Shown here: piece by piece, positions 32,660 through 63,107 of the stretch
Layout of the letters: each line of letters opens with the position of its first letter
Position numbering within the stretch: position 1 is the stretch's first letter
Assembly: GCA_959347315.1 (NCBI GenBank)
Contig: OY365813.1
Span: 21,969,272-22,033,271 of the forward strand
Source of the DNA: Bimastos eiseni
Lineage: Eukaryota; Annelida; Clitellata; Crassiclitellata; Lumbricidae
DNA length: 64,000 nucleotides
Direction of reading: 5' to 3'
Position numbers and translations under genes: made by a program
Notes under the pieces: model-generated
What the model was told of the DNA's origin: nothing
The model's database searches: none
What the model saw: only the letters and a program-made list of their open reading frames with translations

Positions 32660-33358
32660 TCAATCCAACTGACTTAGCTCTGATGTCCCAGCGCTAGCAT
32701 GACTAGTCCTACTCAAAGTTACTGTTGCTGACTCATCGTCGTCTTCCCTATTCTCGCATGGTCTACGCATGAACACAGCCACTTCGTAGGGCGGGGGCAG
32801 AGCGCTCGTATCCGTAGATGGAACCGAGTCGCTACCGGACGTTCCTCGATCGTTTGAGATTCCGTGACCAGGATTGTCATGTCCGTTACTACCCGCCGTC
32901 CTTGTGCTAATCGCTTCGTCGTCTAGATCCTCCTCATCTTCTTTGCAACAGCAACAATCGTTTCCAAAATAGAATCGGAAAAATTTCGTTTCAACGAGCC
33001 AGTTTATGCCCGGATTGCGTCGGCAGCCGCGAGCGCACGAGCCGCACGTACCAGACGAGAAGTAGAACGCCTTGCACAGTTGGGTCCAAGCGAAACCGCA
33101 GCCGACAAATATGGCCACCCAGCATAGCACGCCAAGTACCATGTAGATCCAGCTCGTGGAGTCATCCTCGCTGGGTGCTGGAGATGTCGTGGTGTTCGCC
33201 GCGGTGGTGGTGGAAAATTTGGTGGTAGAGAACGAGAAGAAGGTGGTTTCAGAAAAGAAGTCGCTTGAGTTGTTTTCCATCAATACCCTCGAATGATTTG
33301 ATTGGTTCATGACAAGTCCAATGTGTTTGATTACCACCTGTATTCCTATTGATGGCAT
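32660..33358 (-). CDS. Single-pass membrane protein with Cys-rich juxtamembrane stretch and PPxY motif
   Basis: 232 residues if the ATG at 33358 is used; Met17 and Met27 are possible shorter starts. The N-terminal part (27-70) is Ser/Thr/Phe-rich with N-glycosylation sequons (NQSN, NNSS) and no Cys. A hydrophobic helix follows (about 70-91, IYMVLGVLCWVAIFVGCGFAW). Just inside are eleven Cys in about 50 residues, including a CCCC run (about 134-137) suited to palmitoylation, then an acidic EDEEDLDDE patch. The C-terminal tail has LPPPYEVAV, a PPxY ligand for WW domains such as those of NEDD4 ligases, and a Ser/Thr-rich end. A helix plus a PPxY tail recalls WBP1/VOPP1/Shisa-like adaptors, but the extracellular Cys pattern of those is missing. 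A good acceptor (CTTTGCATGCAG, exon edge near 33407) suggests a 5' noncoding exon upstream. The specific family is not recognised. Confidence 0.6.
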   Translation of the reverse strand: MPSIGIQVVIKHIGLVMNQSNHSRVLMENNSSDFFSETTFFSFSTTKFSTTTAANTTTSPAPSEDDSTSWIYMVLGVLCWVAIFVGCGFAWTQLCKAFYFSSGTCGSCARGCRRNPGINWLVETKFFRFYFGNDCCCCKEDEEDLDDEAISTRTAGSNGHDNPGHGISNDRGTSGSDSVPSTDTSALPPPYEVAVFMRRPCENREDDDESATVTLSRTSHASAGTSELSQLD

Positions 33359-33559
33359 CGTTGCGTCACTCTGAGTCGTAGTTTAAATGCGAAGTGAGTT
33401 CTTCATCCTGCATGCAAAGAAAAACATGAATGTTATCAGCAGTGCTTGCTCTAATTTGTTTGAGGTCTAATGGAGATAGGGTGCGCAAGAGATATTGTTT
33501 GTGCACAGGGACGGCGATCCCGGGCAGATGGAGGGGGACAGTTCCCTCTACCATTTACA

Positions 33560-44894: not shown

Positions 44895-45180
44895 TCACAC
44901 AAAGTAGTCGTTTGCTCCGGCGTAGGGTGCTTCGATTTTAAGGCATCGGATTGCTCGGAGCAGTGTTCTCTGATGCGCTGGAACAGTTATTCCCATCTGG
45001 TCGATGTCTATTTCGGTGAGATGAACGACGTGATTAACGGTACGGTAGCCTCTGTTGTGGAAATTCGGGGCGTAGCAGGCTAGCTGTAGCGAGGCCAGCC
45101 AATGACCGATCTCTTGGTTACCGTAGTGCTGCTGGGCGAGGCTGACTGGCGAAGTTCGAAGGTCTGGGGTTAGAGACGGA
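44895..45180 (-). CDS. Eph exon 15: SAM domain, PDZ ligand and stop
   Basis: 286 bases from TTTTGTAG| to the TGA at 44895-44897. [26 protein letters not shown] and [16 protein letters not shown] form a complete SAM domain; ends DYFV. Confidence 0.95.
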
Positions 45181-48100
45181 CTACAAAAACAGCACACGTC
45201 AAATAGATAGCTGGGTAAAGAATTGGTTAGAGCATTGACCTTGTAACGCAGAGAGCATTTATGGGTTCGATCGTCGTCCTCCCTAGAGAGGGTTACTGTG
45301 TAGGGACCTTGAGCAAGAACTCCTTCACTCACAGTTGCTCAGCGCCATCGAATGAGGTTTGATCATTAGTACATTACGTGGTTACGTTTCACAAGCAAAT
45401 AATTATAATAATAATAGATTTACCAGATATTCAAATTAATCAACAGTTGAACAACCAGACTATGACCTTCCTCGGACTAACCTTTTGATAACCCATTTGA
45501 TTTGACGCAGCGCTCGTGAATAAGCTGGTGCTCTGCGTTTGGCTTCCAAGTGGCGCTTTAGAAGTTTGGAGATTATGAAACGATTACTCATCAGATGATT
45601 CAGATCATCATTTAGGCCAGCAGTGCCCAGCACCGAGAGCACCTTTGAGCAGATATCGTGAAGGCGGCGGCGCTTTATAATATAGTCGCCCCTTCTCTCT
45701 GCTAATATCATTATTATTATTATTACTATTATTATCGTTATTATTTTTAATGCTCTGAGGTACTTCGTTTCCCCAGGGGCTTAGAAATTACTATTATGAT
45801 GTTGTCCGGAGGGTCAGGCCTCGTCTTCAGAGGTCAAAGGATTATTATTATTTTTATTATTATATTTACTCTCACTATTAGTGTTGCCGTTGTCATTATT
45901 ATTTTGGCAATCTCCGAATCTGTTAGTTCTCTCTCTCTCTCTCTCACCTGATAGATTCGTGCATTGATCCTCGTTGCGTTGGACCCTGTCTGAACGTCTG
46001 GAGGTTTCGGACTAAGTAACTAAATGATGGTCTCTGGTCTGGGATCTGAGCCCAACACTTGGTCATCAGCTGTGAGACAACCTCTGGACAGTTCTGTTTT
46101 CGACAAAACAAAAAAGAAGTTTATTCAGTTTTTATTTAAATTTTAAAGTTAATAATTGTGATATTGATATTATTTTCTGCTTTCGACACAACAAACGTCA
46201 GTTTATCCATACGATTATCTCAATTTTAATATTAAAAATTGTAGTGATATCTTATCTATATTACATGTTGCTAGACATACCTATTCATATCAAACTCCGA
46301 TACTGCTCGCAGTGCCAGTCCCAAGCTTGGATAAAGGAGGAGGGCGACGTTAATGATCTTTGTTATCAAACCAATGATCTGTTATTACAGTGTTGTTAAA
46401 CTGAAACCACTGGTCCAGTCTGCCACTATTCATATCTATACACCAAAATCATATTAAAGTCAAGCAATATCTTAACCCATGGAGATCATTCACGATATCT
46501 TCTCAAGCTATCCAGTAGCTCAAGTTATCCAGCGCCTTTTTCCGCACCTCTCCTATCCAAGTCAGACTCACCTGCGGCGCGTGGAGCCTGGTGCCGTTGA
46601 TGACGGCTCTGGCCACCTGTTCGTCGGGCCACGTGGTGTAAGGAGTTTCCCCGAGTGACATCACCTCCCACATGACGACGGCAAAGCTCCAGACGTCGGA
46701 GGCGACGGAGTAGCGTCGATGGGTGAGGACTTCCGGTGATGACCAACGGACCAGAACATTCTCCGTCTAAGACGATAAACAAGTAGAAGGGGCGGCGCTA
46801 TATAAATGCTCGATTACATTACACTTGATTTGTCCCTCCCATTACCTCGGATCGGAGACCAGAGCCAAACAAAGACGTCATTTTCCTCCATCTCACTCTG
46901 TCCCGCGCACTTCTGATGCAATCCGCTCTCGGCAGTCTCATCCACTCCTCGCTGTCATCCATCCACCGTCTTCTAGGTCTACCCCGTGCTCTTTTACCAT
47001 CCACCATTACACTACGTTCGCAAATAACAATGCTACAGCTGAGACTAATATGGAAGAGATATGAAGTCGACGAAAACTGGCAGATTTTGTGTGTGACTGC
47101 ATCCGGGACTTTTGCAGGATATATCGGCGTTTATTTTTGTTAACGAAATGAAACGACTTAATATATATAGAATTTGCAAAATAAATAAAATGTGTTCAAA
47201 TGAAGATTTTTGACTGGACTAGCGTAAATTTAGATGAACTTTTCGGCGATTATACGTTTAACGTTATCCTGCCAAGAACCCGGATGGTATTTCATTCATT
47301 AGCCTACATAGCCGATCACAGACATTGCCAGCAATGTATTAGAAAAGACGATCACTGATTGGCTGTCACGTTGCGACATTATACACCTTCCATATTAGCC
47401 AATGAGAAATGAGCAGTTGCTACAGCCATGTACAATGTGGAATTATATGATTGGGCCGAAATAATTTAACCGTCAGTGTGTACTCGCGATAACCGAATTG
47501 GCTCGGGGTGTACAACTGCATATGGGGCAAAAATCTTTAACCAAATCTGGGTGTGGGGTGATTTGAACCTCTGAAACTCCGAAAGATGGTTCAGCGAGCA
47601 AACCATTGCACCATCAGCACGATGAAATGCAATACGCAGAGTGGCAGAGTGTAGACCAGAGCAGAACGTAAGTGAAACATTGCACGCCAAGTGCAGACGA
47701 AGCCAAGCCACCCCAGCGCAACACATCCTCCTCATATCTAGATTAACCGACAAGAAACACACGAAAAACCTGGTCCAAAGATAAACAGGCGCCCTTCCCA
47801 GAACCAGAAGAAGATATGTTGATGAAAATGCTCATAAAGAAAGAACCGAATGAAGATAACACCCATCAGAATACACGTAGGTCCGAAAACGTACACCATC
47901 TGTCAAACATCTCCCAAAGAATAAGCATATTATAGGAAGCCCGCGAATGCTGCGCAGACGGACCCCAACGCAATCTGTCATAACAAGACATATGGACAGC
48001 TTGAAGGTGCCACATTAGGGTGTCATATAAAGGCGCTATATGATCCCTAGCCACCTCAGACCAATAATAATCGCTGTAGAGATCTTCTGACGTCGAATAT

Positions 48101-51100
48101 AAACCTGATAATCGGATAATAAAGCGATGTTTCTTGTACCGACGAAAATCAAGAAACACGATTATCATCGGATGATTAGCGTTTAACACATGGCCAGAAT
48201 GTTGTAAGTGAACTCTTAAACCATTCGGCAGACCAACAAAAAATAGCCATTCACTTCTTGCACCATTCATTTGTTCATTCATTCATTCATTTGCCCCTTT
48301 AATTCATTCACTCACCACTCATTGACTCACTCACTTACTCACTCATTCACTCACTCACTCACTCATTAACTCACTCACCCATTTATTCACGCATTGACTC
48401 ATTCATTCATTCATTCAGTACACAACAACTACATAAGTAAATTGCTTTCATTTGCATTTGACAGGGCAGCGATTCACCCATTCAGCCAGTGAATTAGCTA
48501 GCCAGTCAGTCAGTCACCTGGCTAATCTGGCAGCCACACCGCCATATAGTCAACCAAACAGACAGCCAGTCACCAAGTCAGTATCCCTCAACCTATCAAG
48601 CCAGTAAAGACAGCAGCCAATACCATAGTAAGACCCACCTGATCGTATTGAACTCCATCCGCATTCAAGAAGCAAAGCATCTCGAAGGAAGACAGTTTGC
48701 AGACGAGATTACCGTCCACCTGAACGCTCTTTGCCGACAAATCCTACGAATTTAAAAAACTGACAAATAAAATAGAAAAACACCACACAACGCAGCAACA
48801 ATTCATGATAGGAAAAACCATGAAATAATAAAAATAATAATAATGATGATAATAATAATAATCAAAGTAACTTTCGCCGTTCATGGGAACGAACAATATG
48901 GCCATTCCAGACAACCAACATATTTTAAGAAAATGAAGAAGAAGTAGAATAAGAAGAAGAAGGAGTCTAATTTCAAACTGACAGCATCGCAATATGATTA
49001 CAAGCACAGTGTGAAGGAATAATGACGAGTTGCTACGGGAGTAAAATTTAATTGTCGGCAGCAAAGAAGAGAACCTACTCTTAGAGTGTAACCCTGTTCC
49101 GTAATGTACTCCATGGCCGACGCCAATCCTTGCAGCATCTCGACTAAGTCACCCATCATCAATCGAAAGCCATTCTCCTATAGAGTCAAATAAATACAGT
49201 AAAGATTATAATGCTTAGCAATGAAAGACGACAATGTAAAAGGTTACAAGACTATGTTCAAGCTTCAAAGGCTAGCAGATCAGTTCAAAGGTTAATCAAT
49301 TCAGTTCAAAGGATAGATGATTCATTTTAAAGTTAGAAGTTCCAGTTGAAAGGTTAGAAGATTCATTAAACAGGCTAGAAGAATCAGTTTAACGGTTAGA
49401 GAATTCAGTTCAAAGGTTTGAAGATTCGGTTCAAAGGTCAGAAAAGCCAGTTCAGAGGTTAGAAGAATCAGTTCAAAGGTTGGTAGATTTAATTCAAAGG
49501 TTAGCAGATTCAGTTCAAAGGCTAGCAGATTCAGTTCAAAGGCTAGAAGATTCAGTTCAAAGGCTAGAAGAGTCAGTTCAAAGGCTAGGAGATTCAGTTC
49601 AAAGGCTAGCAGATTCAGTTCAAAGGTTAGAAGATTCAGTTCAAAGATTAGAAGATTCAGTTCAAAGATTAGAAGATTCAGTTCAAAGGCTAGAAGAGTC
49701 AGTTCAAAGGCTAGGAGATTCAGTTCAAAGGCTAGCAGATTCAGTTCAAAGGTTAGCAGATTCAGTTCAAAGGCTAGCAGATTCAGTTCAAAGGCTAGAA
49801 GATTCAGTTCAAAGGCTAGCAGATTCAGTTGAGTCCCACACATTGCGCTGCTTGCAAGGTATACAAAGAAAACGAGAAAGAAAGACAGACCAAGACCACC
49901 GTGAATGGACAACACAAATGCCGATTAATACATCTCTTCTACTAACGCAATAACGGACAACAGTAAACTTGACAAATGACCGACGACAATGGAGATCATT
50001 AATTCGTAAATTCCCGGCAAATGATTGGCGTCAGAAACTGATGATGAATTAGTTTCGGAGAATGGAATGACATAGAAACGAAGAAAGAGAACGATTACAT
50101 TCCTCAGATATTGAAAGAAATCTGTCAAACCTTGATGAAAAACGCCAGAGACCCGTTCGACATGAATTCCGTGACCATCATGTAGGGCGTCGTTTTTGAG
50201 ACGACCCCTAGGAGAGTGATGACGTTTGGGTGGCTTAGCCTCCACAGGATCTCGGCTTTCGATAGCAAGTGGATCCGATCCTCCTCCGAAGTGTTCTCGT
50301 TCAGACTTTCGATCATGATCGGGACTTCCGAGGTTCCTTGAGTCATGAGCTTGCCGACGCAGACGTTGCCGTAGGAACCTGGAGCAGTCAGGAAGCACTC
50401 CTGATTAAGCTGGTGCCCTGCACTTGACTCTCAAGTGGTGCTCTAGAAGTTTGGAGATTACTATTAGGAAGGGAAATAGATAATCCTGCCGAGGTATTGA
50501 GACCCAGACTCACTGGACCCACAATGTGGGTCATATTATATCACCTGCGATAATCCGCTCATCCATCCTTCAATCGATCCAGCTATCCATTCAGTTATCC
50601 ATTCATTCATCTATTCATCCATCCATCCATTCATGCCTCCCTCAATCGAACCATCCATCCATCCAACCATCTGACAATGCATCCAAATAAGCACACATCG
50701 TGTCATCCATTCATCCAACCATGCATCAGTATATGCAACCCTCCATCCACCCATCCATCCATCTAACGCCCCACCCACACATCCCCCCACCAACAACACG
50801 TCCCTTACCCTTGAGCAGTATGGATTCGATGGTGATGGCAGCTGGCTCTATCTCACAGACCCTTTCCCTAGTACAACTCAACGGATCTTCGTAGGCGAAG
50901 GGATCCGCGTAGATGTGCAGACTGTCCGTTCCAGACGTAGACGGAAGACTAGCTGAAAAGACATCAACACAACCTCAGGCCACGGGCGGAAACTTAGGGG
51001 GGGACAGCGGGGGACGGTCCCCCCCCAAAAAGTTGATAAAGCAGCCTATATCCCCCCCTCAAATTTCAGGCGAAGGGATCCGCGTAGGGCTGGTTCGTGG

Positions 51101-54100
51101 TGTGCCTGCCTGTCCTAGTTTGCGGGTTGTCTCAGGTCAGTGAGTGTCTCATCATCCTGAGGTGCAAGACACCAGGCCGAGAGATAAGAGGCCGACCTGC
51201 AAGTCAATTTAAAGTTCAGAGGCCGTGACCTCGCCTGGGTTTCGATGCTGTGTCTGGTAAACGTGTGCTTAGCTGTGTGTCGACTCTCTAGTATTGGCTA
51301 CACAGCGTGATGCTTAAGGTATAGTGTACTTAAGCAACCGACGGTGCAATCATATACATGCTGCAAGAGAGGGTATGATAAATTATAATGAATATTGAAT
51401 TGAAATCTTGACAAAATATTTTTAGGGCTTCGTAACATACATGCTTAAATTCACGCAGACCGAACTATCTTTTAAAATAAGTTTCAAAACTGATTATGCC
51501 TAATCAGCATGATGAAGGTTGAAATTGTTATAATTATACTTTTAAGGAGTAAGGCTATCCTTCGAACAATGAAATAAGGCGGCCCTTCACGGCCACCGTT
51601 GCTTCATCTGCTATCAACTCTTTTCACTTTGTTCCTAACAGTTTATGTGGTTAAATCCTCATCCATAAGTTTACTCATTTTATTGCATTGAGCGTCTTTT
51701 AATATTTGAGTGATTTAGTCTAGCGGCAGCGTTGGATTTTTGTGAAAAATGAAGCGAGATTATTATAGTAGTCAACAAACAATCTCATACTGGATGAGGT
51801 AAGCGTAGTTATCTGTAACATAATGTAAGTGTAAAACCATTTGGACTTGTATCCCATGTGCGACGGAATAACCGTGTATCTAGTGCGTATACGGTATTGT
51901 GGCAGTGACGACTTTAGCCATAGGCTCGGGCCAACTTACCTGCGTCTCTCCCGGTTGCATACCATGGCCCCTCAAAATCAGACCCACCCATCATGGTTGG
52001 CTAAGTTTAGAATTGCCAAAGTTTTTTATTATTATTATTTTCATGTGTTAGGCTTGCCAGTTACGGCGCTGTGCGTTGCATGGCTAGTGCATCTAATTGA
52101 AGAACATGGGCCTAATTACTTAGCTCTATTATTAGTATCAATAAAAAATTCACATTTTAGTTCTCTAGAGTCTAGATCTACGCTCAACTGTGCTTCAAGT
52201 ATTGCTGTTCTGATCATCTAAACCGTCGTTTAGTACGTAGTGGTCGATTGGCTGGAGTGGGAGAGACGCAGGGGTCTACAGCATACACAAGCCATGGGAG
52301 ACCATTGAGTATGGTCTCCACTTTTCGATTTTTATTTCATTAATCAAGATGAAACTTAAATTATCATCTCCCCTGAGCTATTCATTATTAAATACACTCA
52401 GCAGAACAGCAAACAAATGTAAATGAAAACGCTTTTATATTGCTACCGTATATACGCCTATAATATAACCTCGACCCATCTCATTTTTCAATAAGAATCT
52501 GATCCAGAGAGATCCCTCATCACCGCTCGTCCTTTGAATGGATGCCACGCCATCATTATACACTAGCCTTGCTCAAAATGAGATTTGTAACGTAATGGGC
52601 GCCATGCGTGGATGCCGACGGTTAAATTCGACTCCTGTAGTAAGGTTTTTATTAAATTAATAATAATAATAATTACTTAGGGTTCCCATGCAAGGACCGT
52701 ACTAAACCAAGATTTAAATATCTGAAATAATCCAGCATCGATAAGCGAACCGCAGTAATAATAAGATATTCCTTTATTTAGAAATAACAATATCGGACAA
52801 TTACTCAGAAATGCTTAGGCCTGCAGTCAGTCGCTAAAAGAAATTTAAAAAACTAGTAAATATTTTGTTATAATGATCTGGGGATAAATTTAGTCGTCTT
52901 GGGGTGGGAGAACATGGTTGTGTACTCTTAATTGGTGATTGGCGTGGGTACGGCGTGGAGGTAGGAGTTGGTTAAAACATGCTCGGGGTTATGTAAAATG
53001 GAAAAAAGGAGACGCACGAGACGCGGCCTATTTTTGTATTTTTGCTGCATCCATGATTGGGAATTAAAATTTCCTCCGACCTGTCCCCCGAACCAAATTT
53101 CTTCATCTGTCCCCCCCCCAAACCCGCGACCAAGTCTCCGCCTGAGCTCAGGCGCTATATAAACTAAGTTGAAACTGCCTGCACTTTGGCAGTGCCATTC
53201 TCAAGCCTGGATAAAGGAGGAGAGTGATGCTAATAATGACTTATTTATCACACAGTGTCATTAAACTGAAACTACTACCAGTATTTATCTGTAAAATTCC
53301 GCCACTGTAAAGTTCTTTCACAGTGCCAGTCCCGAGCCAGCGAAAAGGAGCAGGGCGACGCTAATAATCCTTATTATCACACAGTGTCGTTAAACAGAAA
53401 CCACTACTACTGCATCAATTGATCAGTATATGGAGGAGATACTTACAACTGCTCTGGTTGACGTGAACTCGACCAATTGACTGAGCGCCTACAACACATA
53501 AAACACCATTAATCAATCTCCTTCAAAGACGACCCATGACCTCTGTACCTATGAGCCATCTATTGATTGAAGCCTTTTCAACACAGGCAGCTTATATTAT
53601 ATTGAAGATTTTCAGACGATTGCTTAATTGCAATTCAGTGCTGGTGAATGTGCTTTCGAAGTTTTGATATTACAATTACGACAATGATCATAATTACAAT
53701 TACCGTTGATGTATTTCAGCATATCGCAGTCGCTGCTGTTGCCTTCGCAGCTACGTTTCTTTCGCCTGCAAACCATCACAACACATCTTAATAGCAATAT
53801 CATTGGCAGAACACGATATCCTATATCCAATTGGTCAGCGAGCTCACATTGTAACGGGTTCAAACCAAGCGTCGTATTCACCACTAGGCCAGCAAGGCCC
53901 TGGCCTAGTGGCAGAACATTTCAAGGGATGGCAAAACTGGATATAAATTTTTTTGAATGGAAGAAGTAAATGATAGCAAGCCAGTGGACTATACTGTTGT
54001 TACAATTTAAACCAATACTGTAATACACTCACAAAGTTAACACATTTAATTTAGTTTCGTTATTTAATAAAAACAGACTTGCATAGTGTTGCTTTCTCTT

Positions 54101-57100
54101 CTACTATGACGTCTGTTAAAATTTCTGGATTTCAATATGCAATTTCAATTTTGGGAGGGGTGACATAGAAATCTTGGCCTAGAGTAGGAATCCTCTCTCC
54201 CTTCCCCAATAAAGACAAGCCTAGGTTAATTAAATCTAAAACGAGGCCAAGCAAGAGTCTTTGTTCGAATTAATTAATGCATTGGCATATGATGATTCAT
54301 GATTCATCGTTGTCTTTCTTCTCAAGCCGACGCCACCGACGCAGGTGTTCAATAATCAAGCGACGAATGTTCGACGAATGTTCAATAAATGCGACCCAAA
54401 ATAAAGATAAAATCAAACGAGACACACCATCGATGTCATCAATAAACGGGCGGAGGGAAGTCTAGCAGGGCAAATGTAGCAGTTTCAGTTTAACAACACT
54501 GTGTTATAACAAAGATCATTGGCGTTGCCCTCCTCTTTTCCCCAGGCTTGGGACTGGCACTGCTATTTGTGCGAGCAGTGGTGTAGCAGTTAGTAGTATA
54601 TGTAGGTGCAGTTTAATGACACTGTGTCCAGCGTCGCCCTCCTCCTTATCGAGGCTTGGGACTGGCAATGCCTGAGTGCGAACGGGGGCGGACAATAGAT
54701 TCGATTACCAAAGAATAAATCACACTACAGGTAATAATTGATTGCATAATTCTGTTGCATACCTGTAGATGAGTACAACTGCGACAACGGCGATGATGAC
54801 AACGCAGACAACAACGCCAACCGCTGTACCTACGATTATTGCAACGATATTCGGAGACTGAGAGACAACCGGTAGATATGCTAAAACAACCAATTGACAA
54901 CACACCGTAAACTCTATATGCTACATTACACCTGGGAGTCTGGGACTAATATGGAAGTGATATGAAGCCGCAACGTGTCGATTTTATCCTGCAAAAGTCC
55001 CGGATGTAGTCACACACATAACCTTGGTCAGTGGATGCTAATAATAGGCTTCTATGTTAGTCCAGATAACGCGTATACACATAACAATCGTGACCTTAAC
55101 GGCGCTGCAGATCATCTTATACCCTTGTACACTCTGTAATATCACACAAGGGAGCTAGGGTAATCATATAATCCTAACCAGATAACAATCTGAGATATTT
55201 CCAAGTAATGGAAAGAAGACATTGTAATCTGATATAATACAAAGAAATGGATTTGGAATCAACTGAGAAGGCTCCTTGCAGGGGTTTTATACAAATAACC
55301 AAATCAACAACTCGGATGGTTTTGCAGCCAAGGTAGAGCTACGATAATAGACACACTTCACTATAGGACATTTTGCTGTTGAACACGAATTAGAGGAGAG
55401 ATACATTAGTACCAGAGAGAAAAAAATCAATAAACTTATCTAGACGATATCAGTTTCAGTAAGCGATATCTCTGATGATGGTTTCATCGGGGTTACTTTC
55501 TTGACTCTGGACAGAATCAAGTTAGGTCCGTATATCAACGAGGCCTACCGAGAGGAAGAGAGAGAGAGAGAATTGGGTGAGAGAGAGGGCGAGTGAGAGA
55601 GGGTGAGAGACTGAAGGTGAGGAAGAGAGAGACAGATACAGAGAGACAGAGACAGACAGACAGAAACAGACAAGACATAGAGAGCAAGGTAGATCCTCTT
55701 GGTTATTATCTGAAGTATAGGCCTATATGGAGGCTGTACTTTCAACGCAGTCTTTTGTCTGGTGTTGCACTCTGCCCTCTACTTCATCTCCAGAACGAGA
55801 CTGCCTCTTGTGAAACGCATACATTTGCTAGCAAACGGTTAATCTTTTCACACCTTCCCACCACAACAACTTCAATCTTTCGTCGAAATCTCTCCGATCT
55901 CGCCCTTCCTGCTCTCTCACCCCCTAAAGATGTCCTAACCCTCTCTTCCCGCCTTCAGATTCTTTTCCGGCTCCTTTAAACTGGGACAAAAATGGATATT
56001 GTCTCACATTTCTCCTCCTTCATTCATCCATTTCCGAAAAAATCTTTACCCAAAAATCTTCACCTCCACAGCCTCAAACCACCCTCTACCAGACACCCAC
56101 CTCACAACTCTCACCTCTCGTCACTCCCACCCTGTTAAACACCCACCTCCCATCTCACAATCTCTCACCAACAACACCCCTCTCACATTTCCCTCACATC
56201 GCTTCTTCCTTGCAATACACTCCTCTTCTCACACCTCCTTCTCACCTTCCTCATACCAAGCATCACCCTTTGCTGCAGCTTCCCATGCCCCATGCCCACT
56301 CTAGCCACCCTTAGCCGGTACCCTCTCTCTCCTCGTGTGTATATGTTAGACATATTAATGAATCAATGAAGCTTGATATAGCGCCTTTTCGAGAAATCTA
56401 CTCAGAGGCGGTCCCGGTCCAACCTCGGCCAAATAAGACAGATTTTATATGGAATGAAAAAAATGGGGTAGATATAGTTCATAGGTAAGAGCCGAAGATC
56501 CATTGGGAAGCTATTCCAGGCAGTCGACATGTATAGGTCTATATAAGAGATCCAGAGAGAAAATAAGTCAGGAAAATGAGGTAAACATAATCGTTATGAA
56601 CGCTTTTGTTACAGCGGCGACGAGTTAATTGGAGAGATGGCTCTTAAGAAAATCTGTTCCGTTAATTAAGAATTCGTCATCGACTCACTTTCGCTCGTTC
56701 CCGATCGCAGGTCGGTCTTAGCGGACACCGGGTTGCTGTAGTCGCCCCACGAGGACAACACCCTTCCTCTTACCTGCAAATAGGAAACATTTGAGAGTTC
56801 GTTTATGTCGCTTCTCATATAGGGCGTTTCACATAAAGCGTTTCACATAACACTGACACTGACAGAAGACATTTCACATAAGGCATTTCAGGTGAGACGT
56901 TTCACATATGACATTTCACATAGGGCGTCCAAGACATTTTACAAATCACACAAGACGATATTTCGCATATATATATTATAAATAATATATAAAAAAATAT
57001 ATAATATCGGGCGTTTCGTATAAAGGACAAACAACGCGCGCCAACCAACGCAGTAGGAAACTTCGAGAAGGCAATCACCACCTGAGAAAATCTCACCCTC

Positions 57101-57589: not shown

Positions 57590-60500
57590 CGATTCTCTGC
57601 CATCTTCCCTTGTGTATGTCTGTCTAAACTAATGGCTGGATTCTCTCCATCGGCTTCTCGCTCTTTAAAGACGTTTCTTTTCCGTGGAATTTCTGGGCTG
57701 TACTCTGAATAGTTATTCTGTGAGAGGCGTTATATAAATCCAAAGAAAAGATACGATATATATCCGCCTATTTGTCCGTCTCGTTATCATTCTGTATCTA
57801 GTCTTTCCTTCCACCTATCCATCCACACAAAAACAAAAAAGTCCCTACTCAAATCAACGAATGATTACCGAGCCTCAAACCTACCTCCACCCCTCCCCTA
57901 GTGCAAAACAGTAGACTCGTCCACACTTCCACCCCTGCAAAACAATAGACCCGCCCGCCCCTCCCCAAACAAAGACACGGCACATCAAAACAATTCTTAT
58001 GGTAAGAGCAAACAACGCTAAAGGTCCAATGCATATACACCCACGCTCTAACGAGACAACAACGTACTACAGCCATCAAATCTCTGTACACAAACAGACA
58101 AAAAGCTATGGATTACATGTCGCTATTTACAGTCCTGACAGTCACAATTGTTGGGTCTACATTAGACACAGAAGCAAGCCACTATCAGACACCAAATAAG
58201 TATGGAGATTATTCATTTATGAGCTAGGAACCTGTCGCTTGGAAGTCCTGTCTAAATCCATGCTATAATGACGTCATTCGTTCAATACAATATTGTCCTA
58301 ACATGCTTAATTAAGTAATTATTTCATGTATTTCTTCGTATGTTTGTTTATTATCTCGCAACACAATCGCGTCATGTCAAATAAAAACAATTAATTAAAT
58401 CGCTCATACATTCGTTCATTTATGTATTCCAGAGGTGTCAAACTTTTTGTAATGGCGGGCCAGTAGCAATAATATTTTTCCAGACAAGAGTTCCGAAGGC
58501 GTATGAGGGAAATGGGGTAGAGATCTCAGAGGGGGCATACAAACACTTTAATTAGGCCTTTAAGACGTGATTATGATATGCATTATCAAAAACGCCTTAA
58601 AATGACAAACTATACCTTTTATGCTCAATAATTAATGTGTAGTCTCAAGACAAGGCTCCACGGGCAAGAAGTATCTCGTCCGCGAGCAAGAAATGATTAA
58701 TTCTCTCACCAACACTGCTTACAGTCCAGCAGTGCCAGTCCCAAGCCTGGATAAAGGAGGAGGGCGATCTTTGTTATCACACAGTGTCGTTAAACTGCAA
58801 CTAAAACCACCATCTCTCGTGTGTGATATTCATTACTCTACAGCCCCAATTCATCACCCTATGCCCCAATTCATCACCCTATGCCCCAATTCATCACCCT
58901 ATGCCCCAATTCATCACCCTATGCCCCTCTCCAACTGACCTGGAAGATGTAGACAGTGCTGGCAGAGAGACCGCTGACGGTAGCGTTGGGAAAGGCGGTG
59001 GAAAGGGAGTGCGTCATGTTCCCAGCTGTCATCTCCAGGTACCTCACTTCGAAGGAGTTCACAGAAGTTGGATTGACGTCTAGAACAGTCCAGACCAGAT
59101 CCAATGAATCTGTACCTATTCGAGCAACGTAGAGATTGGCGATCCGTGGCAGGCCTATGTAGAAGAACAGAACAATGTCGTTCAATATCAATTCATTCAT
59201 TCGTTCGTCCGTTCGTCCATCCATCCATCCATCCATTCATGCAGCTAACCATCCACTGATTAATTAAATCGTTCATTCATTCATTCACTCATACATTAAT
59301 CCATCCTTCGTCCATCCATGCATCCATCCGTACATTCAAAAATTTATATAGCTCTCTTTCCAGGTAAACTATCATTCATTCATTCAGTAATCCATCCATC
59401 CATCCATGCAGCTATTCCTCCATCCATCCATCAATTAATTTGTACATTCATGCATTCTTTCGTTCGTTCGTGTGTTCGTTCGTTCATTCATTCACTCAAA
59501 AATTGATATAGCATCATTTCCAGGTGACCTCTCATTCGTTCGGCGCACATATTCATTTATTAATTCATATTTTTATATAGGGCCTTTCAAGATAAATTAT
59601 TATTCATTCAAGGCACTTATTCATTCATTCATTAAAAACTTTATATAGCTCCCTTTCCAGGTACCTACTGAAAAGCGCTCCCAACTCCATCCCCGACAAA
59701 AAAGTAAGTTTTCAAGTGACCATAAAATGCACCACTGCACAATTTATGGAACATACGTAATTCCAGAGGTAGGCCATTCCAAACCCTAAGGCCTACCACA
59801 GAGAATGCAACCCTTTTGCATAGCTGCTGTACAGACAAATGGAACCCCAAAAATCCTATCAATACCTGGCCCTGAACGCCAGTAAAACACTCACCTCACT
59901 TTGAAATTTATATAGCGCCCACCGAAAAATGTCACTCGGAGGCGCTCCGAGCACAACCACAGCTCTACAGCCCACACTAATGCAAAAAAACTGTCAGACT
60001 ATTGAAGCCCCACAACCTGATATGAACCAAAATGACATCCACTTTAATTTGGACAACCCGTTTTATTTGATGCAAGCGCTCGTGAATAAGCTGGTTCTCC
60101 GCGCTTGACTTTCGAGTGACGCTTTAGAAGCTGGGAGATTACAATTACGATTATAATTACGCACTCCTCACTATAGCTTCACGGAAGCAGCGGTTGTTTT
60201 ACCTGAGTAGAAACTGGTCGTAGTGAACGCTATATCGGTGCCAACCGACGTCTGACCAGGAGATGAGGAAGAGGAGGAGGAACCAGTTGGTGATGTTTCC
60301 ACGTAGATAGTCACTCTATAGGTAGAGGAAGGCTGCAGTCCAATCAGGTTCACGCTATGAAATCAACGTAATTATGTAACCATCGTTACGCGATATATAA
60401 AAAAATGGAAGATTAGGGTGGGTATTATTCAAAGGGGCAGTGGAATAATCCTAGGTCAATGGGTTCTATAGCATCACTAAGGAGTTATTTACCTCAGCAC

Positions 60501-63107
60501 AAATGTCTAGATACGCATAATTTGTACATACATCTATAAACACACAAACATTCATTCATTCATGCATATACACACATAATAATGTAATGCATACAACATT
60601 ACACATAATCATACATGCGCACATACACACAAACATGCAAAAAAGCATATATATATACATGTATATATATATACATGTATATATATACAAGTATATATAT
60701 ATATATATATACATGTATATATATATACAAGTATATATATATATATACATGTATATATATACATGTATATATATATACATGTATATATATACATGTATAT
60801 GAGATGGTTTACGAAAGTCAATTATGCGAAATCCCGTGTTCAGCCACGTGACATATCACGTGACGCATCGGACAGGAGCAGTTTTACAGGTAAGACGATA
60901 ATTCCTACGGTAGATCATAGATGTCCGACGACCGATAATTATTCTTCGGCGGATGTTTACTGCTAATGGTTTATTGGAAACCTTTCTTCACGCCTCCTCT
61001 TCGATTACGTTATTTGTGTGTGGAATAATAATGATGCCCAGATATCTGGCGAAAACAGTTTTACCGCCGAATCTCGCATTGACCGGCCTTGGCCTGGGGC
61101 TGGTCAGAGGCTAAAGGTCAAAAGTCAGGGCTAAAGCAACCGTCAGAGGTCAAACGTCAACGGTCAGAGGCCAGTGGGAAACGGTCAGGGACTCATGGTG
61201 AAAAATCAGGGTCAATGGTCAAAAGTCAGGGACTAAGGACTAAGGGTCAAGGTTGAGGGTCAAAGGTCAGGGTTAGAGGTCAGACCGTAGTTGGCACTTT
61301 GGACTACTACAGCACGTTAGGGGTCGACTTGACGGAATCTCGGGGGGGGGGGGGTGATCACCCGGTCCCAGAGGCGTCCAGATAAGCAGGGGTGGGGCTC
61401 AGGAGGCAGATGCCTCCAATTTTACGTAGGGGGATATTTTTTTTACTCTTAGGGGCAATATTTTGCCTTCCTTATCCTTGGGACTGAGGGGTTTGTTTTG
61501 CCTTGCCTCCATCACTCAGAGGTATTGATGGCTCTGCCCGATTCAACATTGAGAGGTACGTGGGTCTGTTAGTCTTCATGGATCCTTAAAAAGCTGACAT
61601 TGCTGTACTATCTGAGAAGCGGAGTGGTGATGCAAATCTCCTTACAGACTGCCACCGAATAAGAGCGGGCCCTTTAATATAACAACCAGCGGCAGAAGTG
61701 GGCAGGATGCGGCCAATAGTTAGATCCCCTGCACCTCAACCTCTCCTCTTTCTTCTTCTCCTGCTCCTCTTCCGCCTCCTACCGCCTTCTACACCTCATA
61801 TTTTTCCTTCCTCTCTTCCTTTTCTTCCTCCTTATCCTCCTCTTTCCTCCTCTTTTCCTTCACATCCTTCTCTTCCTCATTCTTCCAATCTTCCTCCTCT
61901 TCATATTCTTCCATCCATATCCTCTCCTTCCATCTCCTCCTCCTCCCTCTTCTCCTCCACCTTATCCCTCCTCCCTCTTTCTTTCCATCTTCCTGAATTT
62001 CTTCCTCCTTCTCTTCCTACCCTCCTCCTCGTCGTCGTCCTCCTACTTCTCTTCCTCGTCCTCCTCCTCTCCCTGCTTCCTCTTCTTCTTCTTCTTCCAT
62101 TCCTTCCCCTCCTTCCCTTGCTTCTCCTCCTTCTCGCAGTCCAGTCCCTCTCTCCATCAAAGCGTCAACGCCGACACCCGACTAGACAAAGACCCCATCA
62201 TCGTACCTTGGGGAAATCAGTCCAGCCTGCTTCGGAGAGTAGGTGACGCCGATTGGGCAGGCCGTGCACTGCGCCCGATAGGAGAGAGGGGCGTCCTTGT
62301 AGTTGCCCGTTCGGTCGCTGGGCGGCTGCCACGAGAGACCCGCAAACGTCTGGTTGACGAAATTCACCCGAAGACCTTCGACCGGTCCAGGCAAATCTAA
62401 CATCAACCGGAAATAGACACGTGAAGAAAGGACAGCCAATTACAAAGCGTTAAACGAAGTCACAATTAATTAGGTCTGATACTATGATAAAAGAGGTGAA
62501 ACGAAAGCCAATTGCAAAACGTTAAAAATGACACAGGTCACATTTAATAAACAGGTCAATTTCAAACTGCTAAATGAGGACGCATTAAATTAGGTCAGTT
62601 ACAAATCGTTAAATGTGGCCGCATCAAATAATTCCATTAATTGCTTAGGCCCTGCATAACCTTGACCTTATTTGTCTCGCATTTGTCATCGCTCGCGAAT
62701 ACGCCGGTGCTCTGCTTTTGGTTATCGAGTGGTGCTTTAGAAGTTCGAAGCCTGCGATTACTATCACCATCTTTATCCATACAACCCGTATAGATCAGAA
62801 ACGCCTTCATACATTTGCATGTACACCCCAAACATCCCGGCATGCACCGGTTTCCCTTGGAGCGGTGAAAGTACATAATTACCACACCTCAGAGGTATGA
62901 CAAAAAAATAAAAAAAATATGCTCAGGACAGTTAAAAAAAACCTGTCTTACTCGTGCAGGAGGCGTTGACGCTGTCAAAGGCATGCCGTGAAAATCCGTC
63001 GTTACAGAGACACCCCGTGGATCCACTTGTCGTTGTGTTACTGTTGGCTGGACAGACGATGCATTGACTGTTTCCTGTGTTGGACTTGTACGTCTGAATA
63101 GGACATT
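44895..63107 (-). CDS. Eph receptor with a pseudokinase domain, 3' fifteen exons (5' end outside window)
   Basis: Fifteen exons (listed separately) join with consistent phases into 747 codons, 746 residues plus stop. In order: end of the Cys-rich/EGF-like region (1-52), first fibronectin III (53-165), second fibronectin III (166-265), membrane helix (277-304, with GxxxG at 283-287), juxtamembrane segment with the paired Tyr354 and Tyr360 in the Eph pattern YxDPxxYEDP, kinase domain (about 378-640), SAM domain (676-733), C-terminal DYFV (class II PDZ ligand type). The whole order is specific to Eph receptors, which bind membrane-bound ephrins and guide cell contact and repulsion. The kinase domain aligns without gaps to Eph kinases around the catalytic sites, yet these are altered: beta-3 Lys is Glu411, alpha-C Glu is Lys428, HRD is LRD (502-504), catalytic Asn is Ser509, DFG is SFE (522-524), APE is SPE, and the first Gly of the loop is Leu. 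The Thr457 gatekeeper, activation-loop Tyr536 and alpha-F Asp562 remain. The frame is open throughout, so it is a gene under constraint and not a relic; catalysis is very unlikely. Vertebrate EphB6 and EphA10 are known precedents for dead Eph kinases. The ligand-binding domain and start lie beyond 64000. Confidence 0.93.
45200..45380 (+). mobile_element. tRNA-derived SINE, copy 2
   Basis: A-box-like TTGGTTAGAGCATTGACC, B-box GGGTTCGATC, and the body TACTGTGTAGGGACCTTGAG shared with 29165-29395. It begins just upstream of Eph exon 15, in the last intron, within about 20 bp of the acceptor. Confidence 0.7.
45510..45590 (+). repeat. Family C copy in the last Eph intron
   Basis: CTCGTGAATAAGCTGGTGC to AGAAGTTTGGAGATTATG. 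Confidence 0.75.
45948..46093 (-). CDS. Eph exon 14: end of kinase domain
   Basis: 48 codons between AAAACAG| and [29 protein letters not shown] corresponds to LHQLMLDCWQKERSxRPxF. Confidence 0.94.
46311..46410 (+). repeat. Family A, near-consensus copy
   Basis: Representative of the family: GCAGTGCCAGTCCCAAGC, TGGATAAAGGAGGAGGGCGA, CG-TAATGATCTTTGTTATCA, then ACAGTG-CGTTAAACTGAAAC. This copy has a 15-20 bp internal insertion. Usual length is 80-90 bp. No poly-A, no reading frame; the ends are only weakly inverted (CAGTGCCAGT / AGTGGTTTCAGT). Confidence 0.8.
46572..46766 (-). CDS. Eph exon 13: kinase C-lobe
   Basis: 65 codons between GTCTTAG| and [36 protein letters not shown] and LGETPY, all standard Eph C-lobe blocks. 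Confidence 0.96.
46783..47007 (-). pseudogene. LINE ORF2 C-terminal fragment with 3' tail, in Eph intron
   Basis: On the minus strand 47007-46819 encodes [18 protein letters not shown] and RDRVRWRKM, the typical end of a non-LTR ORF2 (GKRxRGRPxxRWxDDI...DRxxWR). It is followed by GAGCATTTATATAGCGCC, the complement of the common GCGCTATATAAATGCTC tail. Confidence 0.8.
47460..47640 (-). mobile_element. tRNA-like SINE fragment in Eph intron
   Basis: On the minus strand TGATGGTGCAATGGTTTGCTC (A-box-like) precedes GGTTCAAATCACC (B box) at tRNA spacing, with an unrelated 3' body. It has no acceptor-stem pairing that I can see, so it is a SINE and not a tRNA gene. Confidence 0.55.
47866..48282 (-). 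other. Unexplained 138-codon open frame inside an Eph intron
   Basis: An ATG-started frame with balanced composition (for example [36 protein letters not shown]). It is not simple sequence. It could be a transposon coding remnant or chance; I do not recognise it. It lies between Eph exons 13 and 12 on the same strand but cannot be joined in phase. Confidence 0.25.
48262..48420. repeat. (CATT)n/(ACTC)n tetranucleotide repeats
   Basis: ATTC, ACTC and related tetramers, followed by CAGT/CAGC drift to 48560. Confidence 0.9.
48639..48743 (-). CDS. Eph exon 12: catalytic loop, altered DFG, activation loop
   Basis: 35 codons between TTCGTAG| and [18 protein letters not shown] replaces [20 protein letters not shown] replaces NLVCKVSDFGL, then VQYDQ with the activation-loop Tyr. 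Confidence 0.93.
48830..48975. repeat. AAT and AAG simple repeats in Eph intron
   Basis: (AAT)n at 48831-48862 and AAGAAG-rich at 48928-48962. Confidence 0.85.
49079..49177 (-). CDS. Eph exon 11: alpha-E and start of catalytic loop
   Basis: 33 codons between CTATAG| and [24 protein letters not shown] then GYTLR, the place of Eph NYVHR. Confidence 0.92.
49262..49832. repeat. 21 bp minisatellite in Eph intron (between exons 10 and 11)
   Basis: About 25 units of GATTCAGTTCAAAGGCTAGMA type; 49495-49830 is almost perfect with variants GCA/GAA/GGA at one codon-like position. Because 21 is a multiple of three, both strands stay open (157 codons plus, 197 codons minus). A higher-order pattern of alternating unit types is visible (49555-49620 resembles 49680-49745). 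Confidence 0.95.
50131..50378 (-). CDS. Eph exon 10: kinase N-lobe
   Basis: 82 codons between GCTCCAG| and [20 protein letters not shown] glycine loop, EVPIMIESL (Lys to Glu411), HLLSKAEIL (Glu to Lys428), [13 protein letters not shown] and [12 protein letters not shown]. Confidence 0.96.
50399..50462 (+). repeat. Family C copy in Eph intron
   Basis: TCCTGATTAAGCTGGTGCCC to AGAAGTTTGGAGATTACT, beginning about 20 bp outside the exon 10 acceptor. Confidence 0.75.
50565..50770. repeat. (ATCC)n tetranucleotide repeat
   Basis: CCATCCATTCAT-type units in two blocks (50565-50670 and 50700-50765). Confidence 0.9.
50809..50952 (-). CDS. Eph exon 9: juxtamembrane tyrosines and kinase start
   Basis: 47 codons between CTTTTCAG| and AAGG|GTAAGG. 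Carries [13 protein letters not shown] (Tyr354, Tyr360) and [10 protein letters not shown], where Eph kinases have ITIERVIGAG. Confidence 0.95.
50985..51090. repeat. G-run/C-run hairpin and copy of an exon 9 segment
   Basis: GGGGGACAGCGGGGGACGGTCCCCCC (in two blocks, 51000-51027) can fold on itself. At 51070-51089 stands AGGCGAAGGGATCCGCGTAG, identical over 20 bases to 50893-50912 inside Eph exon 9. Confidence 0.7.
51090..53150. other. Eph intron, no further feature recognised
   Basis: Mostly AT-rich unique-looking sequence. A 126-codon frame at 51841-52221 (plus) shows no motif. A second G/C-run segment related to 50985-51030 is near 53080-53150, ending in a GGCGCTATATAAACT tail. Confidence 0.45.
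53191..53400 (+). repeat. Two forward family A copies
   Basis: 53191-53272 and 53322-53400, both near consensus, about 50 bp apart; the second ends about 50 bp before Eph exon 8. Confidence 0.8.
53447..53488 (-). CDS. Eph exon 8: 42-base juxtamembrane micro-exon
   Basis: Between GTTGTAG| and GTT|GTAAGT. It encodes [13 protein letters not shown] and keeps the phase of both neighbours (1 in, 1 out). The call rests on splice sites and phase more than on conservation. Confidence 0.7.
53704..53765 (-). CDS. Eph exon 7: cytoplasmic stop-transfer and juxtamembrane
   Basis: 20 codons between TTTGCAG| and ACG|GTAATT. Starts with the basic RKKR stop-transfer cluster directly after the helix. Confidence 0.85.
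53881..53911. repeat. Perfect 12 bp stem hairpin in Eph intron
   Basis: CCACTAGGCCAG and CTGGCCTAGTGG are perfect inverted copies separated by the 7 bases CAAGGCC. Confidence 0.8.
54481..54674 (-). repeat. Two reverse family A copies
   Basis: 54481-54562 (near consensus) and 54606-54674 (short internal deletion), ending about 90 bp before Eph exon 6. Confidence 0.8.
54763..54880 (-). CDS. Eph exon 6: transmembrane helix
   Basis: 38 codons between GTTTTAG| and CAG|GTATGC. A 28-residue hydrophobic helix rich in Val/Ile with a GTAVG (GxxxG) dimer motif, ending in IYR. Confidence 0.9.
55553..55680. repeat. GAGA/CAGA purine repeat
   Basis: GAGAGA and GACAGACAGA units on the plus strand. Confidence 0.9.
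55700..56400. other. C/T-rich intron sequence with a GCGCC tail element
   Basis: Pyrimidine-biased plus strand (CACCTCC, CTCTCA) with long Ser/Pro/Thr frames. At 56370-56410 CTTGATATAGCGCCTTTTCGAG is the reverse of the common 3' tail. Confidence 0.5.
56689..56773 (-). CDS. Eph exon 5: end of fibronectin III-2
   Basis: 28 codons between TTTGCAG| and AAA|GTGAGT, beginning [13 protein letters not shown], which matches Eph VRARTxAGYGxFS. Confidence 0.88.
56820..56935. repeat. 14-17 bp minisatellite with the core GCGTTTCACATAAG
   Basis: About seven units of CATTTCACATA / CGTTTCACATA type. Confidence 0.8.
57280..57615. repeat. (CTGT)n blocks
   Basis: CTGT runs at 57284-57302, 57449-57500 and 57556-57590, with unique sequence between. 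Confidence 0.9.
57630..57745 (+). pseudogene. LINE 3' end remnant
   Basis: The frame ends [11 protein letters not shown], the usual last residues of CR1/L2-type ORF2, followed by GAGAGGCGTTATATAAATCC, the shared tail. Confidence 0.65.
58430..58520 (+). mobile_element. Possible hAT-type transposon end
   Basis: CAGAGGTGTCAAACT followed by GGCGGGCCAGTAG resembles the terminal sequence of many hAT elements. The opposite end was not found. Confidence 0.3.
58728..58802 (+). repeat. Family A copy with 12 bp deletion
   Basis: GCAGTGCCAGTCCCAAGCCTG to GTGTCGTTAAACTGCAAC; lacks the CGCTAATGAT part. Confidence 0.8.
58842..58928. repeat. 20 bp minisatellite, just downstream of Eph exon 4
   Basis: CCCCAATTCATCACCCTATG repeated four times perfectly; the array ends about 12 bp from the exon 4 donor. 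Confidence 0.95.
58940..59154 (-). CDS. Eph exon 4: most of fibronectin III-2
   Basis: 71 codons between CTACATAG| and [25 protein letters not shown] and [12 protein letters not shown]; two N-glycosylation sequons (NMT, NAT). Confidence 0.9.
59190..59520. repeat. (CATT)n/(CATC)n tetranucleotide repeats
   Basis: ATTC, TTCG and ATCC tetramers in several blocks. Confidence 0.9.
59640..59930 (-). pseudogene. LINE ORF2 C-terminal fragment plus 3' tail, in Eph intron
   Basis: The minus-strand frame 59862-59665 reads [20 protein letters not shown] and HLKTYFF, then GAGCGCTTTTCAGTAGGTAC and the tail CTATATAAAG. It is the same family as 10390-10745 in opposite orientation. A second GCGCTATATAAAT end lies at 59895-59915. 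Confidence 0.75.
60075..60150 (+). repeat. Family C, representative copy
   Basis: GCTCGTGAATAAGCTGGTTC, then TTGACTTTCGAGTG-CGCTTTAGAAG, then GGGAGATTACAATTACGA. Other copies: 39013-39082, 45510-45590, 50399-50462, 62688-62760, partial 36396-36430 and reverse 43432-43465. No frame, no clear tRNA boxes. Confidence 0.75.
60203..60354 (-). CDS. Eph exon 3: second half of fibronectin III-1
   Basis: 50 codons between TTTCATAG| and [28 protein letters not shown] strand pattern, then an unusual Ser7 run before the domain ends. Confidence 0.88.
60640..60800. repeat. (ATATATATACATGT)n array
   Basis: AT dinucleotides punctuated by ACATGT or ACAAGT about every 14-20 bp. Tyr/Ile frames are artefacts. 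Confidence 0.95.
61110..61290. repeat. Degenerate GGTCAGAGGTCAAA array
   Basis: Direct GGTCA/GGTCAA half-sites occur about fifteen times at irregular 7-20 bp steps. A G12 run follows at 61340. Confidence 0.75.
61735..62160. repeat. Pyrimidine-rich tract adjoining Eph exon 2
   Basis: CTT/CTC-rich on the plus strand, purine-rich on the transcribed Eph sense strand; ends about 45 bp from the exon 2 donor. Ser/Leu/Pro frame is an artefact. Confidence 0.9.
62207..62396 (-). CDS. Eph exon 2: first half of fibronectin III-1
   Basis: 62 codons between GATGTTAG| and [30 protein letters not shown] and the Eph-typical CTACP...TYSPKQAGL (compare VQYAPRQLGL). Confidence 0.92.
62688..62760 (+). repeat. 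Family C copy
   Basis: CGCTCGCGAATACGCCGGTGC to GCGATTACTATCACC. Confidence 0.65.
62952..63107 (-). CDS. Eph exon 1 of this window: Cys-rich/EGF-like
   Basis: 51 codons between CTCTGCAG| and A|GTAAGA. Cys pattern CPIQTYKS...CIVCPANS...GCLCNDGF...SC matches the Eph GTFKS...CxPCPxNS...CxCxxxF motif. Two NxS/T sequons. Confidence 0.9.

Follow-up and report, generated by a model that had tools for sequence, protein, structure and literature searches.

We describe here an Eph receptor gene of the lumbricid annelid Bimastos eiseni whose kinase is, as judged from its sequence, catalytically dead, having lost the residues that bind the phosphates of adenosine triphosphate (ATP) and magnesium. The gene lies on the minus strand of a 64,000-nucleotide stretch of contig OY365813.1 (C8:21969272-22033271; hereafter the window), in a genome of 660 Mb in 118 contigs, and it extends just beyond that stretch. 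Fifteen exons were located; spliced by their consensus AG/GT borders and phase, they give a model of 944 codons that starts in the ligand-binding domain, ends with the stop codon and has no internal stop. An earlier note on this DNA had proposed an Eph pseudokinase in an invertebrate, and the loss of both the VAIK Lys and the DFG Asp bears this out. By analogy with EphB6, we think it probable that the product acts as an ephrin-binding scaffold co-receptor, a pseudokinase that is itself phosphorylated by active Ephs.

Lost and kept residues of the kinase

Every substitution that the earlier note had named is present in the minus-strand DNA, and its residue spacings (386, 411, 428, 509, 522) match those of our model; its exon and residue numbers begin mid-gene, because the ligand-binding domain lies beyond the window. 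Along the kinase, the first Gly of the glycine-rich loop is replaced by Leu (codon CTC, 50815-50813, model residue 597), the beta-3 Lys by Glu622 (GAA, 50310-50308) and the alpha-C Glu by Lys639 (AAA, 50259-50257). The HRD His is Leu (CTA, 49084-49082), with the Arg and Asp of this motif kept, the catalytic Asn is Ser (AGC, 48728-48726, residue 720), and DFG reads S-F-E (TCC 48689-48687 and GAG 48683-48681, residues 733-735). The motif list had been right yet incomplete, as it overlooked the change of the VAIK Ala to Met (ATG, 50316-50314), which leaves IMIE in place of VAIK. The catalytic loop as a whole has gone from HRDLAARN to LRDLSAKS, including an Arg-to-Lys change. Loss of any one of the VAIK Lys, the HRD Asp and the DFG Asp was taken as enough for the label of pseudokinase; here the first has become Glu and the third is lost in SFE, while the HRD Asp is retained. 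It is very unlikely that chance or sequencing error produced nine separate functional-site changes while the frame stayed open and the splice signals stayed at consensus.

The kinase had also been described as aligning without gaps to Eph kinases and as ending at 46572, and neither description holds. The activation loop, counted up to RW and starting with the residue that precedes the DFG Asp-equivalent, is 26 residues long, which is 3-5 fewer than in the four sister genes of the same animal (29-31); the other intact Ephs measured have 25-30, with 25 in Nematostella, and EphA10 has 26. The last part of the kinase is encoded by a further exon (46093-45948), which is followed by the SAM exon with the stop codon (45141-44895).

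Of 69 columns that are invariant in 19 Eph rows with intact motifs, 29 are changed in the pseudokinase. These rows include the four own paralogues and P0181, and leave out P0017 and the kinase-dead P0019; an earlier count, 19 of 56 invariant columns over 17 rows, was set aside because it included P0019, a kinase-dead fish row. The changes concentrate in the first part of the 311-residue piece that was compared, with 26 of 47 columns changed up to residue 199 and 3 of 22 from residue 205 onwards (Fisher p 0.0014, for a split picked post hoc, after the data had been seen), so that alteration is heavy on the ATP side, with the core of the C-lobe largely kept. The residues retained include the Arg and Asp of HRD, the Asp of alpha-F and the Glu in the APE motif, along with Trp, Pro and Arg residues in the C-lobe.

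Gene structure, domain make-up and constraint

The gene belongs to the Eph family by its full domain set, which comprises an ephrin-binding domain, a cysteine-rich region, two fibronectin type III (FN3) domains, a transmembrane and a juxtamembrane segment, a kinase fold and a SAM domain. The ephrin ligand-binding domain (PF01404) scores 151 bits against a cut-off of 27, over profile positions 24-176, and PF25599, PF07699 and PF00041 (in two stretches) exceed their cut-offs across the cysteine-rich region and the two FN3 domains. PF14575, together with YADP (50911-50909) and YEDP (50893-50891), identifies the transmembrane and juxtamembrane segment, in which both conserved tyrosines are kept. 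For the kinase fold, PF07714 gives 232 bits (cut-off 23) and the best match in the PDB is the EphB2 kinase (E 1e-72), and the SAM domain (PF00536) is likewise above its cut-off. The exons are as follows, in window coordinates except for the first:

C8:22036467-22035795, just beyond the window, minus strand: ligand-binding exon, joining exon CYS in phase
62952..63107, minus strand: exon CYS, Eph cysteine-rich region (PF07699 on the full model)
62207..62396, minus strand: exon FN1a, first FN3 domain, part 1 (Pfam match)
60203..60354, minus strand: exon FN1b, first FN3 domain, part 2
58940..59154, minus strand: exon FN2a, second FN3 domain, part 1 (Pfam match)
56689..56773, minus strand: exon FN2b, end of second FN3 domain
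54763..54880, minus strand: exon TM, transmembrane helix (PF14575)
53704..53765, minus strand: exon JM1 (predicted from phase and splice signals only), basic stop-transfer stretch RRKKRSCEG...
50809..50952, minus strand: exon JM2, juxtamembrane, both conserved tyrosines; first loop Gly to Leu at 50815-50813
50131..50378, minus strand: exon K1, N-lobe of the kinase, with IMIE for VAIK and Lys for the alpha-C Glu
49079..49177, minus strand: exon K2, reaching as far as the beginning of the catalytic loop, with Leu for the HRD His
48639..48743, minus strand: exon K3, catalytic and activation loops, Asp kept at 48743-48741, DFG to SFE at 48689-48681
46572..46766, minus strand: exon K4, with the APE motif and the beginning of the C-lobe, most core residues being kept
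45948..46093, minus strand: exon K5, end of the C-lobe and kinase-SAM linker, outside the coordinates of the earlier note
44895..45141, minus strand: exon SAM (PF00536), C-terminus NDYFV and stop codon

JM1 was second by score among five phase-compatible candidates and was picked for its basic stretch, and the acceptor of the SAM exon was selected to fit the phase. The first exon or exons, with the signal peptide and ligand-binding profile positions 1-23, were not located. In the intron between K1 and K2, at 49264-49830, a 21-base unit (TTCAAAGGTTAGAAAATTCAG) is repeated in tandem about 27 times.

Compared with the paralogue at C8 24.9, the pseudokinase shows identities of 0.58, 0.63 and 0.40 at the first, second and third codon positions, against 0.83, 0.89 and 0.44 between two active paralogues. 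Third positions are near saturation in both comparisons, and first and second positions of the pseudokinase are clearly held back. By the Nei-Gojobori method, the nonsynonymous divergence (dN) is 0.55 and the synonymous divergence (dS) 2.07 against one paralogue, with dS undefined against another, and we claim no ratio. In 2000 runs of a neutral simulation of the kinase exons, the frame remained free of stops in 5.4% of runs at 10% substitution, 0.25% at 20% and 0.05% at 23%; at 46% substitution, equal to the observed divergence, there were no stop-free runs. The codon-position pattern and the stop-free frame suggest a protein under selection and not a decaying relic. Constraint from before and from after the loss of catalysis is not separable in these two kinds of data, which together speak for selection.

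Sister Eph genes and the origin of the pseudokinase

By their kinase exons, at least five Eph genes are present in this genome, namely the pseudokinase gene, two more on C8 (near 18.06 Mb and 24.90 Mb), one on C14 and one on C16. This is a lower bound, since 130 of 603 first-look candidates of the genome search with an Eph kinase were scored; among those scored, four loci show at least 70% identity and the pseudokinase gene 40-47%. Four matches to the ligand-binding domain were found in the genome, one of which is the pseudokinase gene. All four sisters (Eph_C8_18.06, Eph_C8_24.9, Eph_C14 and Eph_C16) keep VAIK, the alpha-C Glu, HRDLAARN and DFG, and their kinases are 75-79% identical to one another and 39-42% identical to the pseudokinase, with which they have kinase exon borders in common, as judged from the ends of the matches. 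Three of the five genes (C8 near 18.06, 22.02 and 24.90 Mb) lie within 7 Mb, all on the minus strand.

The ligand-binding domain of the pseudokinase gene is 54% identical to those of two own paralogues, 50% to that of P0181 (an intact-motif Eph, and the sole protein from our ectodomain search) and at most 38% to those of eight other Ephs; between two active paralogues the value is 67%. In both the kinase and the ligand-binding tree its nearest rows are its own paralogues, with weak support, the support for the own group being 73/86.8 in the ligand-binding tree. Among these paralogues, Eph_C8_18.06 comes closest in the kinase tree, and in the ligand-binding tree it is placed as sister (82/72), though neither position is firm; it is encoded 4 Mb away, on the chromosome and strand that also carry the pseudokinase gene. 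In the ligand-binding tree the end branch of the pseudokinase gene is 0.67, those of the two paralogues being 0.21 and 0.31, and in the kinase tree the position of the pseudokinase is unsupported owing to its long branch. The kinase tree took in the kinase-dead P0019 and three EphA10 rows, and neither tree has an EphB6 row. Orthology to EphA10 seems unlikely, though this support does not amount to proof, as the gene groups nearest its own paralogues and its ligand-binding domain is 54% identical to theirs, against 35% to that of EphA10 (one row compared). The earlier claim of an origin independent of the vertebrate cases can be upheld for EphA10, from which the annelid pseudokinase most likely arose separately. 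The simplest reading, we infer, is a lineage-specific duplication from within the animal's own set of Ephs.

Eph pseudokinases are known from vertebrates, and an invertebrate gene of this kind with a reversed ion pair appears to be new. EphB6 is kinase-inactive only in mammals (PMC7586955 section 7), as is also stated in a 2019 study by Arcas and colleagues, who traced kinase-dead Ephs to Gnathostomata and reported altered isoforms in some invertebrates (PMC6993872). Their text mentions neither annelids, Capitella, Helobdella nor Lophotrochozoa. Schistosoma mansoni has one Eph and four inactive tyrosine kinases, among which the available text does not state the Eph to be (PMC3135232), and VAB-1 of Caenorhabditis elegans has kinase-independent functions without being a dead gene (PMC3215182). 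An invertebrate Eph pseudokinase gene was not found in the open-access literature searched, as far as its texts were consulted, subscription papers and supplements lying outside this scope.

Several observations on the wider families and the rest of the DNA may be added. Fourteen ephrin matches (PF00812; on C1, C2, C4, C7, C10, C12 and C13) correspond to about ten loci, a family that seems large for an invertebrate. The fish protein P0019 (Archocentrus centrarchus, "ephrin type-A receptor 4a-like") reads HKRLAAHK where HRDLAARN would be expected, and GF for DF, and looks like a pseudokinase itself, under the name of an active kinase. Within the window, a 30-base stretch (CCCAAGCCTGGATAAAGGAGGAGGGCGACG, with at most 3 mismatches) occurs five times on both strands, at 1638, 9570, 24018, 46320 and 58740, where none is expected by chance, and is probably part of an interspersed repeat. 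An open frame of 234 residues at 13227-13931 (minus strand) matches a DDE transposase with 27.6 bits, just below the Pfam cut-off of 28.6, and another of 240 residues at 32660-33382 (minus strand), with a hydrophobic segment followed by cysteines, has no Pfam match. Contig C118 is the mitochondrial genome, 15,339 bases long, using the invertebrate code. Its protein genes all lie on one strand and follow the order nad4L, nad4, a gap (where the ribosomal RNAs are presumed), nad1, nad3, nad2, cox1, cox2, nad6, cob, atp6, a repeat region and nad5, the names being assigned by eye. Such an order suggests the ground pattern of annelids, and the cox1 protein has a clitellate look. Besides C118, the chromosomes carry six whole-profile copies and many fragments of cox1, representing long mitochondrial insertions in the nuclear genome.

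Receptor role, ion pair and competing explanations

How could a dead Eph of this kind work? As a co-receptor, its ectodomain would still bind ephrins and the receptor would join clusters with its active sister Ephs, which would phosphorylate both juxtamembrane tyrosines in trans. The YxDP tyrosines, equivalent to the sites at which SH2 proteins dock on active Ephs, would recruit such proteins, and the receptor would tune or dampen the Eph cluster, as proposed for EphB6. The earlier note had suggested purely structural signalling; this is plausible, but since both juxtamembrane tyrosines are kept, phosphorylation in trans is at least as likely. In EphB6, JX1 and JX2 are phosphorylated by EphB4 (PMC13259870), phosphorylation via Fyn, EphB1 or EphB4 has been reported (PMC8347583), and the receptor has been proposed as a scaffold in Eph clusters (PMC8347583, PMC13259870).

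The comparison with EphB6 was made through published descriptions. Mammalian EphB6 resembles the annelid pseudokinase in its basic alpha-C residue, its catalytic loop (HRSLSAHS, here LRDLSAKS) and its two juxtamembrane tyrosines, and differs in its beta-3 Gln (here Glu), its intact glycine-rich loop, RLG in place of DFG, and the loss of the HRD Asp that is kept here. EphA10 of jawed vertebrates is likewise an Eph pseudokinase altered at VAIK, the catalytic loop and DFG, but it has VAVH with the alpha-C Glu kept, HRG and GFG, and lacks the juxtamembrane tyrosine pair. According to a review, EphA10 and EphB6 retain ATP-binding sites (PMC13259870), from which the annelid pseudokinase would differ if its fold is nucleotide-free. 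Of the Tribbles proteins, TRIB2 and TRIB3 also have LRD for HRD, whereas the beta-3 Lys is kept and ESLED or ENLED stands for DFG (PMC7586955 Table 1).

Several points weigh against the co-receptor explanation. In the kinase tree, the end branch of the pseudokinase measures 2.12 changes per column, those of the active paralogues (0.11-0.18) being 12-19 times shorter, and so long a branch fits loose constraint too. The SAM domain shares only 25% identity with its counterpart in P0181, the sites recognised as ATP-binding or catalytic are not by themselves significantly enriched for change (8 of 13, against 21 of 56 other invariant columns, p 0.10), and the swapped ion pair may play no structural role. 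No orthologue was found in other species by two protein searches (one of 78 proteins, with length limits that excluded full-length Ephs, and one of the best 120 of 192) or by the ectodomain search (P0181 only); as the last of these missed Ephs found in the 120-of-192 search, the absence of an orthologue is weak evidence. Finally, the gene is known here from genomic sequence alone, its expression being unproven. This last point, the very long branch, the predicted JM1 and the first exon not found would also suit a decaying pseudogene. We nevertheless regard decay as very improbable, given 944 codons in 15 exons with no internal stop and with fitting AG/GT borders and phases, first and second codon positions far more alike than the third, and neutral simulations that are rarely stop-free, and never so at 46% divergence.

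It is unlikely, though conceivable, that the receptor is an ephrin decoy or adhesion receptor, whose ectodomain would capture ephrins, perhaps setting off reverse signalling, and whose cytoplasmic part would serve only as a passive anchor. The ligand-binding domain is indeed better kept (54%, against 67% between actives) than the kinase (39-42%, against 75-79%), the genome has about ten ephrin loci, and EphB6 has been suggested as a cellular glue (PMC13259870). However, a mere anchor would have no need of the two juxtamembrane tyrosines, the 19 of 22 invariant C-lobe columns and the SAM domain that are all kept. The retained HRD Arg and Asp would be compatible with an unusual active kinase with relocated catalytic residues, as in WNK, but we find this extremely improbable: the kinase lacks the beta-3 Lys, the alpha-C Glu, the catalytic Asn and both the Asp and the Gly of DFG, no compensating Lys was seen by eye, and the VAIK Met would crowd the adenine site. 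Hardly any credence can be given to an artefact of assembly or annotation, such as a chimeric gene or normal alternative kinase exons nearby, which has nothing in its favour beyond the reliance on genomic sequence; the matches in the four paralogues end at the same exon borders, the frames are continuous, and near C8 22.02 Mb only K1 and K4 of the pseudokinase are among the matches listed (130 of 603 candidates scored).

What, then, does the reversal of the ion pair mean? Filling of the adenine pocket can hold a closed fold without nucleotide in engineered kinases, although no paper on this came up in the open-access literature searched. The Ala position of VAIK presumably touches adenine, so that a Met there could fill the pocket. 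The residues presumed to form the regulatory spine (Leu, Leu, Phe, Leu for His, and Asp) remain hydrophobic or intact. As the more speculative part of our reading, the ATP site is perhaps rebuilt for a nucleotide-free fold, beyond being merely empty. We can offer only as a doubtful proposal that the reversed pair and the VAIK Met lock the Eph kinase fold closed without nucleotide, making it a stable allosteric partner of the four active Ephs, with an origin of kinase-dead Ephs separate from that in vertebrates. An AlphaFold model of the N-lobe exon K1 alone has a helix at alpha-C (predicted local distance difference test, pLDDT, 74), and a Foldseek search with it places Eph kinases on top; both are silent on a Glu-Lys contact.

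We lean slightly towards a true pseudokinase in which the swap lacks structural meaning, both sites having drifted after catalysis became dispensable; this view leaves room for the co-receptor role. A single A-G transition accounts for each exchange (GAA and AAA being one step from Lys and Glu codons), so that chance is a serious rival, and with 29 of 69 invariant columns changed, 26 of the 47 up to residue 199 among them, the swap could be an incidental double hit. In EphB6, too, the alpha-C residue is basic (Arg), and at beta-3 it has Gln, which is uncharged (PMC7586955 Table 1). Conversely, the exact exchange was seen in 0 of 187 kinase domains with residues at both sites, 166 of them having K/E, in a survey of 211 domains from 181 proteins (24 gapped at one or both sites) that was biased to tyrosine kinases, and it occurs in none of the eight human receptor pseudokinases (PMC13259870 Table 2).

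Should a dedicated Eph pseudokinase gene indeed stand beside four active Ephs in this invertebrate, the arrangement of active plus dead receptors would have evolved at least one further time. The features in common with EphB6, namely the basic alpha-C residue, the SAxS catalytic loop and the juxtamembrane tyrosines, would then be independent evidence of what a receptor of this kind needs. Moreover, with its naturally reversed ion pair, this kinase could be used to learn whether the salt bridge between beta-3 and alpha-C serves the shape of the fold apart from ATP.

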